Source of the DNA: Aerococcus viridans
GTDB lineage: Bacteria > Bacillota > Bacilli > Lactobacillales > Aerococcaceae
Assembly: GCF_002083135.2 (NCBI RefSeq)
Contig: NZ_NBTM02000001.1
Coordinates: forward strand, 1,798,001-1,862,000
Length of the DNA: 64,000 bases
Direction: 5' to 3'
How positions within the stretch are numbered: position 1 is the stretch's first letter; every line of letters begins with the position of its first letter. The position numbers and the translations under genes are program-made. A model generated the notes under the pieces. It saw only the letters and a list, made by a program, of their open reading frames with translations, did not search any database and had not been told where the DNA came from. Positions 24,243-63,512 of the stretch are shown in pieces.

Positions 24243-24482
24243 TTTGAATAAAAAATACCAAGGCAAGCAAAAGCTCGACTTGGTATTGGTTTAATACAGA
24301 AATCACTTTTGCCCGCAAAATAGAAAGCGCTCCTGGAAGGAATTGGGCATTCCTTTTTGGCAGTGATGCATTTTTTTAATACACCCCCAACAGTAAATCA
24401 TACTGTTTCGGCTAATAACCCTTTCTCCAAATGGATACTGATGTGATTAGCGGCCTCTTTCTATTCCGCATTTATTCATTTA
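24243..24482 (-). ncRNA. Lysine riboswitch (L box) with intrinsic terminator
   Basis: Read on the reverse strand. P1 is AATAGAAAG (about 24457-24465) with CTTTCTATT (about 24318-24327). Inside are AGAGG and AGTA...TTTGGAGAAAGG (24421-24440 region), GCCGAA followed by the hairpin ACAGTA/TACTGT, a GGGGTGTATT-type bulge segment, then ACTGCC with the hairpin AAGGAAT/ATTCCTT ending CCAGGAGCGC. The order and sequences match the lysC-type lysine riboswitch as I know it. A terminator follows: AATACCAAG (24279-24287) with CTTGGTATT (24254-24262) and a T run. Lysine should stop transcription ahead of the transporter. Confidence 0.85.
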
Positions 24483-53829: not shown

Positions 53830-55440
53830 CTACTCTGCTGTCTGAATATCGGCCCATCTATAGTTGATATAAGATTGACCTGGTCGATTGATATCAGATA
53901 CTTGTGGATTTTCTAAAATTGCTTGATAGGACTGATACACTGGAATCTGAACAGCATAATCATCTAAGTCAGCTTTTTCAAGATTTATCAGCGTTTCCCA
54001 TCTACCACTTGGGTCAAGTGCTTGCGCCAGACTTTTAGCCACCGATTCATCCAATTCATCATATTGATAATTTCCGCGGGTAATAGAAGAATCAAACCGT
54101 CCTAAATAGTTTATTGGGTCCCCGAAATCAGCTTGCCAGAAAGTGGCACCTAAGTCATAGTCCCCATCAGATAAAGCTGCAAATCGAGCAGATAACGGCA
54201 TAGTCTTTACAGTAACTTCGATACTTGGCAGGTTCTCTGTTAATTGTGATTGAATATACTCCGCAAAAATTTGACTTTCCTCGTCTTCGGCCACAACCAT
54301 CTCCAATGATAAGGAATCTAAGCCAGCCTCCGCCAAACCATTTTTCCAATTTTCCTGGGCATCTTCTAAATCGTAATCTGTTTCAATCGTCGCATCATCT
54401 CTAAAATCAGCATCTGTTTCAGGGTTCCAGGCCACCTCACGTGATACAAAACCATTGGTCGCAACCGACCCGTTTTGTAAAATATTATCTACAAAGGCTT
54501 CCCGGTCAATGGCTTCGTAAATAGCACGGCGGATATTCAAGTTATCTAGACCCGGTGTTTCGTGGTTAACTTCGATATAATTCGTCCGCGGAATTGGATA
54601 AGTCTGGTAGTCTTCATTATTTTGGTTTTGGACTGCAAAATTACCAGTTAATTCGATGACATCTAATTGGCCAGAATCGTATAAATTTAGTGCAGTGGCT
54701 GTTTCAGGTAGGTATTGGAAAATAACCGCATCTAAATTGACATTGTCAGCATCCCAGTAGTGGTCATTTTTCGCAAAAGTCCAAGTGTTTCCAGTCGCTG
54801 CATTCCATTCTTTCAAAACAAATGGTCCGTTATAGACAGCAGAGTCACTGGTAGACCCGTATTGGTCACCTGCTGCTTCAACGACCTCTTGATTTTGCGG
54901 GTAGTAAGCAGGTACGGTCAAAAGATCGGTAAAGTAAGCTGTTGGATTTTCTAAGGTGATTTCCAAAGTTCTATCATCCATTGCCCGAACACCTAATTCA
55001 CTGGTATCTAATTCGCCAGCCATGATTTCTGTGGCATTGTTGATTGTGCCGTCAAACATATAGGCATAAGGTGCACCCAGGTCGGGATCCACCATTCGTT
55101 GCCATGCATAGACGTAATCGTTGGCTGTCACGGGATTGCCGTTCGACCAGGTCGCTGCTTCCTTCAATTTGATGGTGTAAACAGTCCCATCCTCAGAAAC
55201 TGTCGGCATGTCGTTTGCATCCGCCGCAATTAATTGGTTATCCAAATCATAAGTATACAAACTGTTATAAAAGTTCATATTGGCTGTGATTGTTGCAATA
55301 TTCGATGCCGCAAAAGCCGTATCAGCTGATTGAATTTCATCCGTGGATTGGATATTTAAGACCTTTTCTGTAGCTTCTTCATTAGTGCCTCAAGCCGCAA
55401 GCATTACCGCTGACACTATTCCCAACCCTATTTTCTTCAT
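53830..55440 (-). pseudogene. Oligopeptide-binding lipoprotein OppA-like, TGA at the lipobox cysteine
   Basis: Peptide ABC transporter binding protein, SBP family 5. From ATG 55440 (GGAGGT seven bases upstream) the frame reads MKKIGLGIVSAVMLAA, then TGA (55390-55392) as codon 17, then GTNEEATEK and an intact mature protein to 53830 (TIKLKEAATWSNGNPVTANDYVYAWQRMV, NLNIRRAIYEAIDREAFV). The position is exactly the lipobox cysteine (LAA-C-G). One base change from TGC or TGT explains it. The remaining 520 codons are undamaged. Without Cys there would be neither anchor nor protein, unless the stop is read through or translation restarts at ATG 55278, which lacks the signal peptide. Confidence 0.85.
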
Positions 55441-56107: not shown

Positions 56108-56908
56108 TTAAATAGAATTTTCTTGTTCTTGATAGTCTGATTCAGCCAAGTCGGCCATGATTTGGTATAAATCACCTGCTGTCAACTGATCTTTTTCTTC
56201 TTTACTAAAGTCTTTAATGATTTTACCGTGGTGTAAAAGGATCATCCGGTTACCATATAACAAGGCATCTTGGAGATTATGAGTAATCATTAAGGCTGTT
56301 AGGTTATGGTCTTTTACTTGGTCAGATGAAATTTCTAAAATGCGTTTAGATGTCTTTGCGTCTAAGGCTGCTGTATGTTCATCTAATAATAAAATTTCTG
56401 GTTTAGTGATAGTTGCCATCAATAAAGCAATCGCTTGTCTTTGCCCTCCGGATAATAAGCCGATTTCAGCATCCAATCGATTTTCTAAGCCTAAATGTAA
56501 TTGGCTTAAGGCCTCATGGAATTGTTTGCGGTTATCATCCTTAATAGCTAAACCTAGACCTCTTTTTTGACCGCGTTTCAAAGCTAATGATAAGTTTTCT
56601 TCAACCGTCATTCGTGGTGCTGTTCCCATTGACGGGTTTTGGAATACGCGGGAAACAAATTTAGCCCGGTCCTCTTCAGCAAGACGACTAATATCTTTAT
56701 CGTTTAAAGTGATGGCACCTGAGTCTAACAGGAAGGTGCCAGCAATGGCGTTTAATAGGGTTGATTTTCCTGCCCCGTTACCCCCGACAATGGTAATGAA
56801 ATCGCCCTTTTCCACTGTTAATGATAAGTCATCTAAGGCTGCGAAGGCATCCGGTGTTCGTTTGTTAAATACTTTTCTCGCTTGGTTAATTTCTAATAAG
56901 GTCGTCAT
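56108..56908 (-). CDS. ABC importer ATPase, TrpXYZ-like family
   Basis: ATPase of 266 residues. Walker A GGNGAGKST, Q-loop VFQNPSMGTAPRMTV, signature LLSGGQRQAIALLMAT, Walker B ILLLDEHTAALD, H-loop ITHNLQDA. The HTAALD and QNPSMGT variants are typical of the PF04392-linked importers (tryptophan/tyrosine or unknown substrate). It overlaps the permease gene by one base (start A shared with the stop). Confidence 0.88.
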   Translation of the reverse strand: MTTLLEINQARKVFNKRTPDAFAALDDLSLTVEKGDFITIVGGNGAGKSTLLNAIAGTFLLDSGAITLNDKDISRLAEEDRAKFVSRVFQNPSMGTAPRMTVEENLSLALKRGQKRGLGLAIKDDNRKQFHEALSQLHLGLENRLDAEIGLLSGGQRQAIALLMATITKPEILLLDEHTAALDAKTSKRILEISSDQVKDHNLTALMITHNLQDALLYGNRMILLHHGKIIKDFSKEEKDQLTAGDLYQIMADLAESDYQEQENSI

Positions 56909-57798
56909 TATTTAGCCACCTTTCTGTATTCACGGTAGTCGGCTACTTTATTTTGAATGGTTGGAATAGCCAGACATAAAGCAACGATAATTGCTGAGAA
57001 TAGACGGAAATCATTCGCTTCAAAGTTCATCATTAAGACAATCGTTAATAGTAAGCGGTAAATAATTGAGCCCACTAGGATTGTAATAAAACGAACCCCT
57101 AATTTCACATTACGGAATAGGACTTCCCCAATAATAATGGAAGCTAAACCAATCACTACAGTACCAACACCCATTTGAATATCCGCATAGCCGTTATCAG
57201 TAGAAACAATATAACCTGACACAGCGATCAATCCATTGGCTAGCATGTAACCAAGCATAGTCATCTCTGACGTTTCAATCCCTAGTGATTTAGCCATTTG
57301 CATATTATCACCTGTTGCAATCAAAGCTTGCCCCATTTCGGTTTTAAAGAAATAAGTTAACAGGAATATAATTGCTGCTACAATGATCAAACCAATCACA
57401 ATGGTATCTACATTACGTGGCAAGGATAAACCAGCAATCGCAGTTTTTAAAGTCGTCACCGTTGATAAAGACATGTTGGCCTTACCCATGATTTTCAAGT
57501 TGATTGAGTAAATCCCTGTCATGGTAATTATACCTGCTAATAACGGATTAATTTTCAAGCGGGTTACTAAAAAACCTGTAACTGCTCCTGCAGCCATACC
57601 TGCTAAAAATGAAATCAACAATGATGTGAAAGGATCTATATTAAAGTAAAGCATTTGGGCACCAATGGCACCACCCAGTACAAACGACCCTTCAGTTGTC
57701 ATATCCGGTGCATTTAAAATTCTAAAAGTGATATAAATGCCGAGACCCATTACAGCCCAGATTGTCCCTTGAGAAAAAGCACTAATTATCATGTCCAT
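56908..57798 (-). CDS. ABC importer permease, TrpXYZ-like family
   Basis: Permease of 296 residues with about nine helices, of the branched-chain-permease-like fold used by PF04392 systems. GIYITFRILNAPDMTTEGSFVLGGAIGAQ and KMGKANMS/ATGDNMQMAKSLGIETSEM are conserved landmarks. Single permease gene, so a homodimer is expected. Confidence 0.88.
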   Translation of the reverse strand: MDMIISAFSQGTIWAVMGLGIYITFRILNAPDMTTEGSFVLGGAIGAQMLYFNIDPFTSLLISFLAGMAAGAVTGFLVTRLKINPLLAGIITMTGIYSINLKIMGKANMSLSTVTTLKTAIAGLSLPRNVDTIVIGLIIVAAIIFLLTYFFKTEMGQALIATGDNMQMAKSLGIETSEMTMLGYMLANGLIAVSGYIVSTDNGYADIQMGVGTVVIGLASIIIGEVLFRNVKLGVRFITILVGSIIYRLLLTIVLMMNFEANDFRLFSAIIVALCLAIPTIQNKVADYREYRKVAK

Positions 57799-57810: not shown

Positions 57811-58878
57811 TTATTTGCCAACTAATTCAGCATATTCGTCACTGTTAACATCAATTGCCGCATCGATTAATGCTTGTGGTAGTTGAATGCCCAATTCTTC
57901 AGCTTTAGCCGTATTGATGTAAGTATCTGTCTTATCATTGTAGACAATTGGATAAGTTGCCGTATCCGCGCCTTCAATGACATCTGCTACTACTTTAGCT
58001 GTATCTAAACCGAATTGATATTGGTTGATACCAACAGTCGCTAACCCACCGTCAGCAACCATAGCGTCAACTACTGGAATAACTGGAATGCCTTTTGCAT
58101 CTGTTACTTGAATTAAGGTATCCATAGCACTAGCAATTGTATTGTCATTTGGTACCCAGATAACATCCACTTGACCAGCTAATTGTTCAGCGACTGACGC
58201 TAGATCATTTGTTGAAGTAATGGTAGATTCTACTACGTTCAACCCTCTTGATTCTGCTTCAGCCTTGGCTTCACTAACCGTTTTCGTTACATTCGATTCT
58301 GAAGAATTGTAAATAATGCCGACATCTTCTATATCTGGTAAAATTTCTTCCATTAAATCAAATTGTTCTGCAACTGGTGCCATATCTGTAACCCCTGTGA
58401 CGTTAGCCCCTGGTTGTTCATCAGAGGCGATAAAACCGTTGTTAGCTGGGTCTGATACCGCAGATAAGATCACCGGACGATCGCCGTTAGCGGCATTGGC
58501 TAAAGCTTGCGCAGCTGGGGTTGCGATGCCGACTAAAATATCTGCATTTTCAGCAAGAAAAGCATTCGCAATCATGGCTAAATCAGATTGGTTTCCTTGG
58601 CCATTTTGGTAATCAATTGTGATGTTTTCACCATCTACATAGCCACGTTCAGCCATGCCATCATAGAAACCGTCTCTAATTTGGTCTAATGAAGGATGTT
58701 GGATGAATTGTAATAAACCGATAGTGATGTCTTCTTCTGTTTCCACTAATTGAGATTCATCTACCTCTTGACTGGCGGCCTCTAGTCCCTCTCGTTTTGC
58801 AATAAGGGTTGGCATTACAAGATATAATGCAAAAAGGGCAATCACTAATACCGCACCCATACTTGAAATTTTCTTCAT
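57811..58878 (-). CDS. ABC importer substrate-binding protein (PF04392 type)
   Basis: Extracellular binding protein of 355 residues. An N-terminal membrane segment (MGAVLVIALFALYLVMPTLI) is followed by an acidic linker and then the domain IGLLQFIQHPSLDQIRDGF. It has no lipobox cysteine, so it is held by the uncleaved helix or released. GIIYNSSESNVTKTVSEAKAEAESRGL and DNTIASAMDTLIQVTDAKGIPVIPVVD are family-typical. First gene of the operon, behind a long structured leader. Substrate likely an amino acid; relatives take tryptophan or tyrosine. Confidence 0.87.
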   Translation of the reverse strand: MKKISSMGAVLVIALFALYLVMPTLIAKREGLEAASQEVDESQLVETEEDITIGLLQFIQHPSLDQIRDGFYDGMAERGYVDGENITIDYQNGQGNQSDLAMIANAFLAENADILVGIATPAAQALANAANGDRPVILSAVSDPANNGFIASDEQPGANVTGVTDMAPVAEQFDLMEEILPDIEDVGIIYNSSESNVTKTVSEAKAEAESRGLNVVESTITSTNDLASVAEQLAGQVDVIWVPNDNTIASAMDTLIQVTDAKGIPVIPVVDAMVADGGLATVGINQYQFGLDTAKVVADVIEGADTATYPIVYNDKTDTYINTAKAEELGIQLPQALIDAAIDVNSDEYAELVGK

Positions 58879-59155
58879 GTCTTTCCTCCTAATTTTGACA
58901 ATAAAAAACGTCCTACTCTAAACTGTAGGACGCTAGGTCCCACATAGTTGATTGGTAAATCATTACTATCATGTCTATGTGGGGGGTTATTTTGAAAGGC
59001 TCAAATTTTTCTCCACATAAATACAGTCCAGAAAACTGAAGTTGTATCTATGCGCACTCGTGCAGATACAACTAATTCATGTGGCTTTGCCAGTATTTCA
59101 TTGTTTGCACAGTAGTTAACATTTGAGTGGCTCCCTTCGTCTTTGAAATCTCGTT
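58879..59155 (-). ncRNA. Structured 5' leader with intrinsic terminator, class unassigned
   Basis: Reverse strand. The leader is about 275 nt. Helices seen: CTCAAAT with ATTTGAG; inside it CCACAT with ATGTGG; inside that GTTGTATCT with AGATACAAC and a CAGT/ACTG hairpin. Then CCCACATAG pairs with CTATGTGGG, followed by the terminator CGTCCTAC / GTAGGACG plus T6 (about 58905-58932). A GTGGGACC string agrees with the T-box core GTGGNACC, but the rest of a T-box stem I is not recognised. Likely a riboswitch or T-box-type attenuator sensing the transported compound. Confidence 0.6.
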
Positions 59156-59164
59156 AAACAAATA

Positions 59165-59213
59165 TTAACAAATCATGAGAAAAATGACAAGCATAATATC
59201 TGAAAAATGACAA
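59165..59213 (-). promoter_or_regulatory. Promoter of the ABC importer leader, with a direct repeat
   Basis: TTGTCATTTTTC occurs twice on the reverse strand (59202-59213 and 59179-59190), 23 bp apart. The second supplies TTGTCA as -35, with TAATAT 17 bp later as -10. Confidence 0.55.
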
Positions 59214-62881: not shown

Positions 62882-62992
62882 GTGCCTTCAAATTAACCAG
62901 GTCGATGCCTATACGACAATCACCTTTTTGCATTTTTGAAATATCCGCTATACTAATTGGAAGAGATATTCCAAATTGAAGGAGCAAAGTAT

Positions 62993-63512
62993 ATGAAGCA
63001 ATATATCGTCGATGCATTTGCAGAACAATTATTTGAAGATAATCCTGCTGCTGTCTGTATCTTAGACAAGTGGTTACCAGAAGACTTGATGATTAACATC
63101 ACAAAGGAAAATAACCTGTCAGAAACAGCCTTCGCGATTAAAGAAGCTGGCAACTACCATTTACGTTGGTTTACCCCCGGCGGTGAAATTGACCTTTATG
63201 GACATGCGACACTTGCGACAGCTTTCGTCATCATGAACTATATCGATTCAAGTTTAAAGCAAGTTTCCTTTGATCCACTTAGTGGCCAATTAACAGTAAC
63301 ACGTGATGGTGATCAATACGTCATGGCCTTCCCGTCTTATAAATTGCAATCTATCCCTGTAAGTGAAGCAATGGTAGCTGTACTAGGCGTAAGTCCTAAA
63401 GAAGCTTGGGCGGGACCGTAAGATGTTCTGTTAGTGAAGATCAGGTCACCTTGGCCGGGGCTGCCGTCTTATGAGCTGAATCTGAATTGAATATTACCGC
63501 CTAATGATGATT
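62993..63512 (+). pseudogene. PhzF-family isomerase/epimerase, truncated and decaying
   Basis: ATG 62993 (AAGGAG upstream) opens MKQYIVDAFAEQLFEDNPAAVC, a PhzF start, with the catalytic Glu in NLSETAFA and the landmark WFTPGGEIDLYGHATLATA. The frame stops at 63421 after AWAGP, at about 143 of ~260-290 residues. Just beyond, DVLLV follows in the same frame, and a shifted frame then reads EDQVTLAGAAVL, so the rest is present in broken form for about 90 bases before becoming unreadable. One insertion plus a frameshift and a 3' deletion are likely. Family members act as isomerases, but no activity is expected. Confidence 0.85.

Follow-up and report, generated by a model that had tools for sequence, protein, structure and literature searches.

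A probable tryptophan attenuator ahead of a TrpXYZ-type importer operon in Aerococcus viridans

The leader and its importer operon

In the window, by which we mean the whole stretch of 64,000 nucleotides of Aerococcus viridans DNA that was analysed, a leader of 276 nt lies on the minus strand, from about 59155 to 58880, between a probable promoter and trpX (Table 1). The promoter sequence is identical in relatives, including leader L013, which is 81% identical to the window leader. The trpX product scores 392.9 bits against the NCBIfam profile NF041285 (cut-off 390) and also matches PF04392, in agreement with the PF04392-type importer recognised in the first-pass annotation; by its profile matches, the operon downstream of the leader is a TrpXYZ-type tryptophan importer. 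Elsewhere in the window are an ordinary lysine riboswitch (RF00168, 78.8 bits; 24317-24467, minus strand), a 154-aa ORF resembling a truncated PhzF-type protein, possibly a pseudogene (62957-63421), and an OppA-like ORF (53830-55278, minus strand) whose profile is matched only from position 71, so that its N-terminus may be missing or frameshifted.

Table 1. Features of the leader and the importer operon, in window coordinates
Feature	Position	Strand	Basis
Probable promoter, TTGTCA-17-TAATAT, TG before -10	59162..59190	-	consensus scan; consensus match only
Shine-Dalgarno (SD) of uORF, GAAGGGAG	59131..59138	-	read directly; preserved in L010-L013
uORF, putative leader peptide MLTTVQTMKYWQSHMN then stop	59072..59122	-	read directly; position and ending conserved
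Trp codon UGG, proposed stalling site	59090..59092	-	conservation in aligned leaders
Segment 0, GCCACAU, last uORF codons, complementary to segment 3	59079..59085	-	0:3 duplex energy
Segment 1, AGUUGUAUCUGC, partner of segment 2, overlaps uORF stop	59062..59073	-	1:2 covariation
Segment 2, GCAUAGAUACAACU, partner of 1 or 3	59040..59053	-	2:3 covariation
Segment 2b, UCUGGACUGUA, complementary to terminator loop and arm	59022..59032	-	11 pairs; conserved in 8 Aerococcus leaders
Segment 3, UGUAUUUAUGUGG, partner of 0, 2 or 4	59013..59025	-	covariation, duplex energy, mask folding
Segment 4, CCCCACAUAG, partner of 3 or 5	58975..58984	-	3:4 covariation
Segment 5, CUAUGUGGG, 3' arm of hairpin 4:5	58939..58947	-	comparison with relatives; overlaps GTGGGACC (58936-58943)
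Intrinsic terminator T2, AGCGUCCUAC-AGUUUAGA-GUAGGACGUU UUUU	58907..58934	-	10 pairs then TTTTTT
trpX, tryptophan-binding protein	57811..58878	-	NCBIfam NF041285 and PF04392
Importer permease gene (TrpY-like)	56908..57798	-	PF02653
Importer ATPase gene (TrpZ-like)	56108..56908	-	PF00005

The leader folds at -78.8 kcal/mol, compared with -54.8 +/- 4.9 kcal/mol for 200 dinucleotide shuffles (z -4.9), none of which was as stable, and the stretch 58890-59170 behaves similarly (fold z -6.3). The structured leader proposed in the first-pass annotation is thus real, and the nested helices, branched part, alternative hairpins and strong intrinsic terminator described there are all present, the last (T2) being preserved with G-U changes in leaders L010-L013. 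A less fortunate suggestion was that GTGGGACC forms the core of a divergent T-box recognising a tRNA with a C discriminator. Apart from the motif itself, that explanation can draw on Streptococcus suis, where trpX is under T-box control (PMC9382623); however, the genome yields 25 RF00230 matches at E <= 1e-3 and none at the leader, stem I was not found in the leader, and GTGGGACC belongs to one arm of an ordinary hairpin, where related species have other letters, so that we give a T-box virtually no credence.

That the leader had been left unassigned proved right in so far as no Rfam family reaches its gathering score there, yet a described family, RF04312 (the trpB motif), is matched below threshold, at 26-28 bits (best 27.6) against a gathering score of 59. 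Other sub-threshold matches, to Yfr10, miRNA and snoRNA families, were dismissed as chance. The P1 of RF04312 is recognisable in the window leader as the 2:3 hairpin (0.99), with the antiterminator strand in its 3' shoulder (the 3:4 alternative), and these comparisons make the window leader a divergent relative of that family, scoring below its threshold. TrpX homologues occur in 53 of 60 related genomes, many with an RF04312 match directly upstream; matches to the family are present in 159 of 295 genomes of the order and, at a stricter cut-off, in 2 of 398 genomes of a phylum sample. The strongest (L069, 86.6 bits) has a uORF ending WQSR then stop, and its first downstream ORF, which resembles a group II intron reverse transcriptase, may be an insertion that separates the leader from its gene.

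An upstream reading frame and competing helices

Overlooked in the first-pass annotation was a short upstream ORF, in which ATGTTAACTACTGTGCAAACAATGAAATACTGGCAAAGCCACATGAATTAG encodes the 16 codons of MLTTVQTMKYWQSHMN and a stop, with a Shine-Dalgarno sequence, an ATG and one Trp codon, and whose stop sits where a chain of mutually exclusive helices starts. The UGG codon lies outside the helices and is invariant across 42 aligned leaders from other genera. Among 116 leaders retrieved with RF04312, whose model leaves the uORF out, a uORF with an SD ending close to the element is found in 115 (19% of dinucleotide shuffles), a Trp within its last 8 codons in 103 (1.7% of shuffles) and a W-x-x-[WHRQ] ending at the same position in 102 (0.04% of shuffles). 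The window leader thus has what an attenuator calls for, a leader ORF predicted to be translatable, with a codon for the regulated amino acid and conserved in relatives; that it holds a single Trp codon counts against this reading, since in classical attenuators such codons often number at least two.

The segments downstream of the Trp codon can pair in two incompatible series, either 1:2 and 3:4 with a terminator-blocking pairing, or 2:3 and 4:5 with the terminator. Across 67 non-redundant Trp-type leaders, helix 2:3 is 93% canonical with 33 two-sided cells (shuffle maximum 15), helix 1:2 has 26 (maximum 14) and helix 3:4 has 51 (maximum 41), and all three helices thus covary beyond every shuffle in the kind of comparison that the first-pass annotation had called for. 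Helix 0:3, scored in one register in these leaders, was 38.8% canonical and no better than shuffles. Two leader subtypes differ by one base here (registers 27 and 28), and when the better register was taken for own and permuted partners alike, the 0:3 duplex reached -13.2 kcal/mol with its own partner as against -9.9 +/- 0.3 with permuted ones (best of 5000 permutations -11.1). Five pair types occur at one of its positions, and where the third residue of the WQx ending changes (S/N/T/I/F), the opposite strand changes to match. In a separate MAFFT alignment of the 42 leaders from other genera, 0:3 and 1:2 together gave 61 two-sided cells against 19.9 +/- 4.3 in shuffles, and the competing 2:3, 98.3% canonical, gave 9 against 1.3 +/- 0.9, a value reached by 0 of 500 shuffles. 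Given the covariation within 0:3 and 1:2 on the one hand and within 2:3 on the other, both alternative folds look selected. In the window leader itself helix 0:3 is short, and folding without a ribosome leaves it unpopulated, with 2:3 winning. A covariance model of 0:3 and 1:2 including the uORF end (model R1), built from the 42 leaders with Aerococcus excluded, scores the window leader at 50.0 bits (E 2.4e-8), and across the whole genome it matches only this leader and that of a TrpX paralogue.

In most relatives, within Aerococcus and beyond it, a U-run follows hairpin 4:5, and often a second terminator comes after that. The clade of the window (leaders L009-L013) retains hairpin 4:5, has lost the U-run after it and carries a further terminator 3' of it. 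In 8 Aerococcus leaders the duplex between segment 2b and the terminator region reaches -16.1 kcal/mol with its own partner compared with -13.1 for permuted partners, 68 of 40320 permutations being as good. The best-supported reading of these sequences is that the second terminator is the regulated one in the window clade. Helix 5:6 had been considered as the main antiterminator; its pairing was seen by eye and is confined to the window clade, and the genus-conserved pairing of 2b with the terminator was preferred.

Codon type and downstream genes

Most RF04312 matches that lack Trp have Phe/Tyr codons instead (FYFSYFR, YYFSYFR), and the Rfam family RF02863, sRNA_2410, corresponds to this type (YFSYFR then stop). 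A pattern search of GTDB genomes for the Phe/Tyr-type ending returned at least 120 stretches, some of them chance matches in unrelated phyla, and mostly from Enterococcus, Streptococcus, Lactobacillus, Tetragenococcus, Vagococcus, Alkalibacterium and Aerococcus. The codon type goes with the gene: leaders of the Trp type precede a TrpX-family protein in 105 cases and the tryptophan synthase beta chain, TrpB, in 5. Those of the Phe/Tyr type precede a TrpX-family paralogue in 44 cases and other genes in 37, chiefly the genes for shikimate dehydrogenase, DAHP synthase, chorismate synthase, shikimate kinase and prephenate dehydratase. The binding-protein tree requires a single switch of leader type, at a branch supported 100/100, as against about 16.6 for shuffled labels. 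The same genome holds one of the RF04312 matches with Phe/Tyr codons at 1304532-1304754 (L066, L155), where a second TrpX-like operon is preceded by a Phe/Tyr-type leader with the uORF MKMNSLHTNNRFYFSYFR then stop, scoring 69.7 bits for RF02863 (cut-off 61); its TrpX paralogue has an equivalog score of 269, below the cut-off of 390, and is therefore probably not a Trp binder.

These patterns bear on the original proposal for RF04312, that of a riboswitch whose ligand is tryptophan or something related to it. The trpB motif was placed by Narunsky et al. (2024) among the strong riboswitch candidates; they describe a terminator and a P1 whose right shoulder contains an antiterminator, and they explicitly leave room for an attenuator (PMC11109978). 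In our analysis the competing helices and the uORF codons largely explain the conserved sequence, the change from Trp to Phe/Tyr codons falls exactly where the downstream gene changes, and a binding pocket needs neither the SD nor the reading frame that nearly every leader has, all of which makes a ligand-binding riboswitch very unlikely. Of the new riboswitch for the transported compound entertained in the first-pass annotation, the response to the compound survives, a cis-acting, terminator-bearing leader of that kind being most likely; the ligand-binding part is disfavoured, since a conserved uORF that carries Trp codons, or in the sister type those for Phe/Tyr, speaks for attenuation coupled to translation.

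Two leaders found further afield precede other carriers. One outside the order (L295 1330-1700) has the uORF MNYINNFNLKIQIFFNNHFR then stop, with Phe codons and with AACCATTTTAGAT complementary to ATCTATGATGGTT, upstream of an apparent sodium:neurotransmitter-type symporter. Another, of the Phe/Tyr type, lies in Terrisporobacter mayombei, of the Clostridia (L213 2890-3088, minus strand), before a BrnQ-type branched-chain amino acid carrier, a placement that might hint at another substrate for the carrier.

Proposed control and known systems

We consider it very likely that the leader is a ribosome-mediated transcription attenuator for the tryptophan importer, switched on when Trp-tRNA is short. 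As RNA polymerase transcribes the leader, a ribosome would be translating the 16 codons of the uORF. With Trp-tRNA short, the ribosome would stall at UGG and cover segment 0, leaving segment 1 free, so that 1:2 could form and segment 3 could pair with segment 4; segments 2b and/or 5 would then be available to the 5' arm or loop of the terminator, allowing read-through into trpXYZ. With Trp-tRNA plentiful, a ribosome at the stop codon would cover segment 1, and 2:3 would form, taking 2b along with it, followed by 4:5 and the terminator. In most relatives hairpin 4:5 would itself be the first terminator, with a second to follow, and in the Aerococcus clade of the window control would rest on the second.

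This choice by ribosome position, for which the covariation of both folds speaks, is also predicted by folding the window transcript up to segment 4 with the ribosome footprint masked. With a 12-nt downstream edge and the Trp codon in the A site, 1:2 reaches 0.94 and 3:4 reaches 0.90; with the ribosome at the stop, 2:3 stands at 0.99 and 3:4 at 0.02, and without a ribosome 2:3 is again at 0.99. Shortening the edge to 9 nt lowers 3:4 to 0.49. Across 121 leaders, a ribosome placed at the Trp (or Phe/Tyr) codon leaves the 5' arm of the terminator more sequestered than one placed at the stop (49 up, 12 down) or than none at all (44 up, 4 down), an effect of modest size and significant, and of the sign expected if the importer is on when Trp-tRNA is short. 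Equilibrium folding of the full-length transcript does not reproduce the switch: whatever the state of the ribosome, the terminated fold is the most stable, and it is favoured over antiterminated ones by about 10 kcal/mol; the switch thus needs co-transcriptional trapping, and it must be assumed that the outcome is set during transcription, as is the case in attenuators generally.

The recognisable endings of the leader peptides, W-Q-x-W-R-R or Y-F-S-Y-F-R, might instead recall a nascent-peptide arrest switch of the TnaC kind, in which the leader peptide would sense the free amino acid in the ribosome. Of these residues, however, Trp alone is invariant; its neighbours vary (Q/R/H/N/K; S/N/T/I/F/P), and because this variation is matched by the RNA partner strand, RNA pairing largely accounts for the similarity of the peptides. 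An importer induced by starvation, moreover, requires a sign opposite to that of tna, and we regard peptide arrest as highly improbable.

Returning to ribosome-mediated attenuation, it seems fairly probable that RF04312 and RF02863 form one reprogrammable attenuator family of the Lactobacillales, with rare members outside, in which a swap of Trp for Phe/Tyr codons would re-address the RNA to another importer or to shikimate-pathway genes, the uORF codons would pair with the antiterminator and, in the window clade, the first terminator would have decayed and the second have taken over by way of 2b. Such a scheme offers an orphan riboswitch candidate, of which >900 representatives have been published, a testable mechanism and an effector, charged tRNA-Trp. 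It predicts that the Enterococcus small RNA sRNA_2410 represents the attenuated leader of a system for Phe/Tyr, and it provides a rule by which leader codons would predict what a TrpX-family importer carries. A T-box match at 1162797-1163062 of the same genome (L310 2998-3263; 70.6 bits, under the gathering score, E 4e-14) lies ahead of the trpE-G-D-C-F-B operon, and tryptophan synthesis and import thus appear to be controlled by two different RNA mechanisms.

Leader-peptide attenuation itself is of a long-known kind; in the open-access literature we found no published leader peptide for RF04312- or RF02863-type systems, nor the uORF, the 0:3 and 1:2 helices, the RF02863 link or the codon rule. 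As in the E. coli trp leader, a leader peptide with one or more Trp codons is predicted and a stalled ribosome would select the antiterminator; here, however, it would be the terminating and not the stalled ribosome that covers segment 1, there is an additional helix between uORF codons and antiterminator, and there are one or two Trp codons. The Bacillus subtilis bmrB-bmrCD system likewise joins ribosome-mediated transcription attenuation to an ABC transporter in a Gram-positive bacterium, with antibiotics and not an amino acid as the signal (PMC4191407). The trpXYZ T-box of S. suis serves the same importer and responds to Trp shortage, but does so through a tRNA-binding T-box RNA of unrelated structure (PMC9382623). 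RF04312 has its P1 (2:3) and its place before trpX homologues in common with the window leader, and a comparable terminator layout (PMC11109978); the window leader falls below that family's threshold and its first terminator lacks a U-run, and the published model, that of a riboswitch candidate, is without the uORF, segment 1 and the 0:3 helix. RF02863, catalogued as a small RNA gene of Enterococcus faecium (sRNA_2410, PMC5593968), has the same scaffold with a uORF, YFSYFR then stop, that would read Phe/Tyr instead of Trp; it was published as a 195-nt RNA with two Northern bands (PMC5593968), and the 195-nt RNA would fit a terminated leader.
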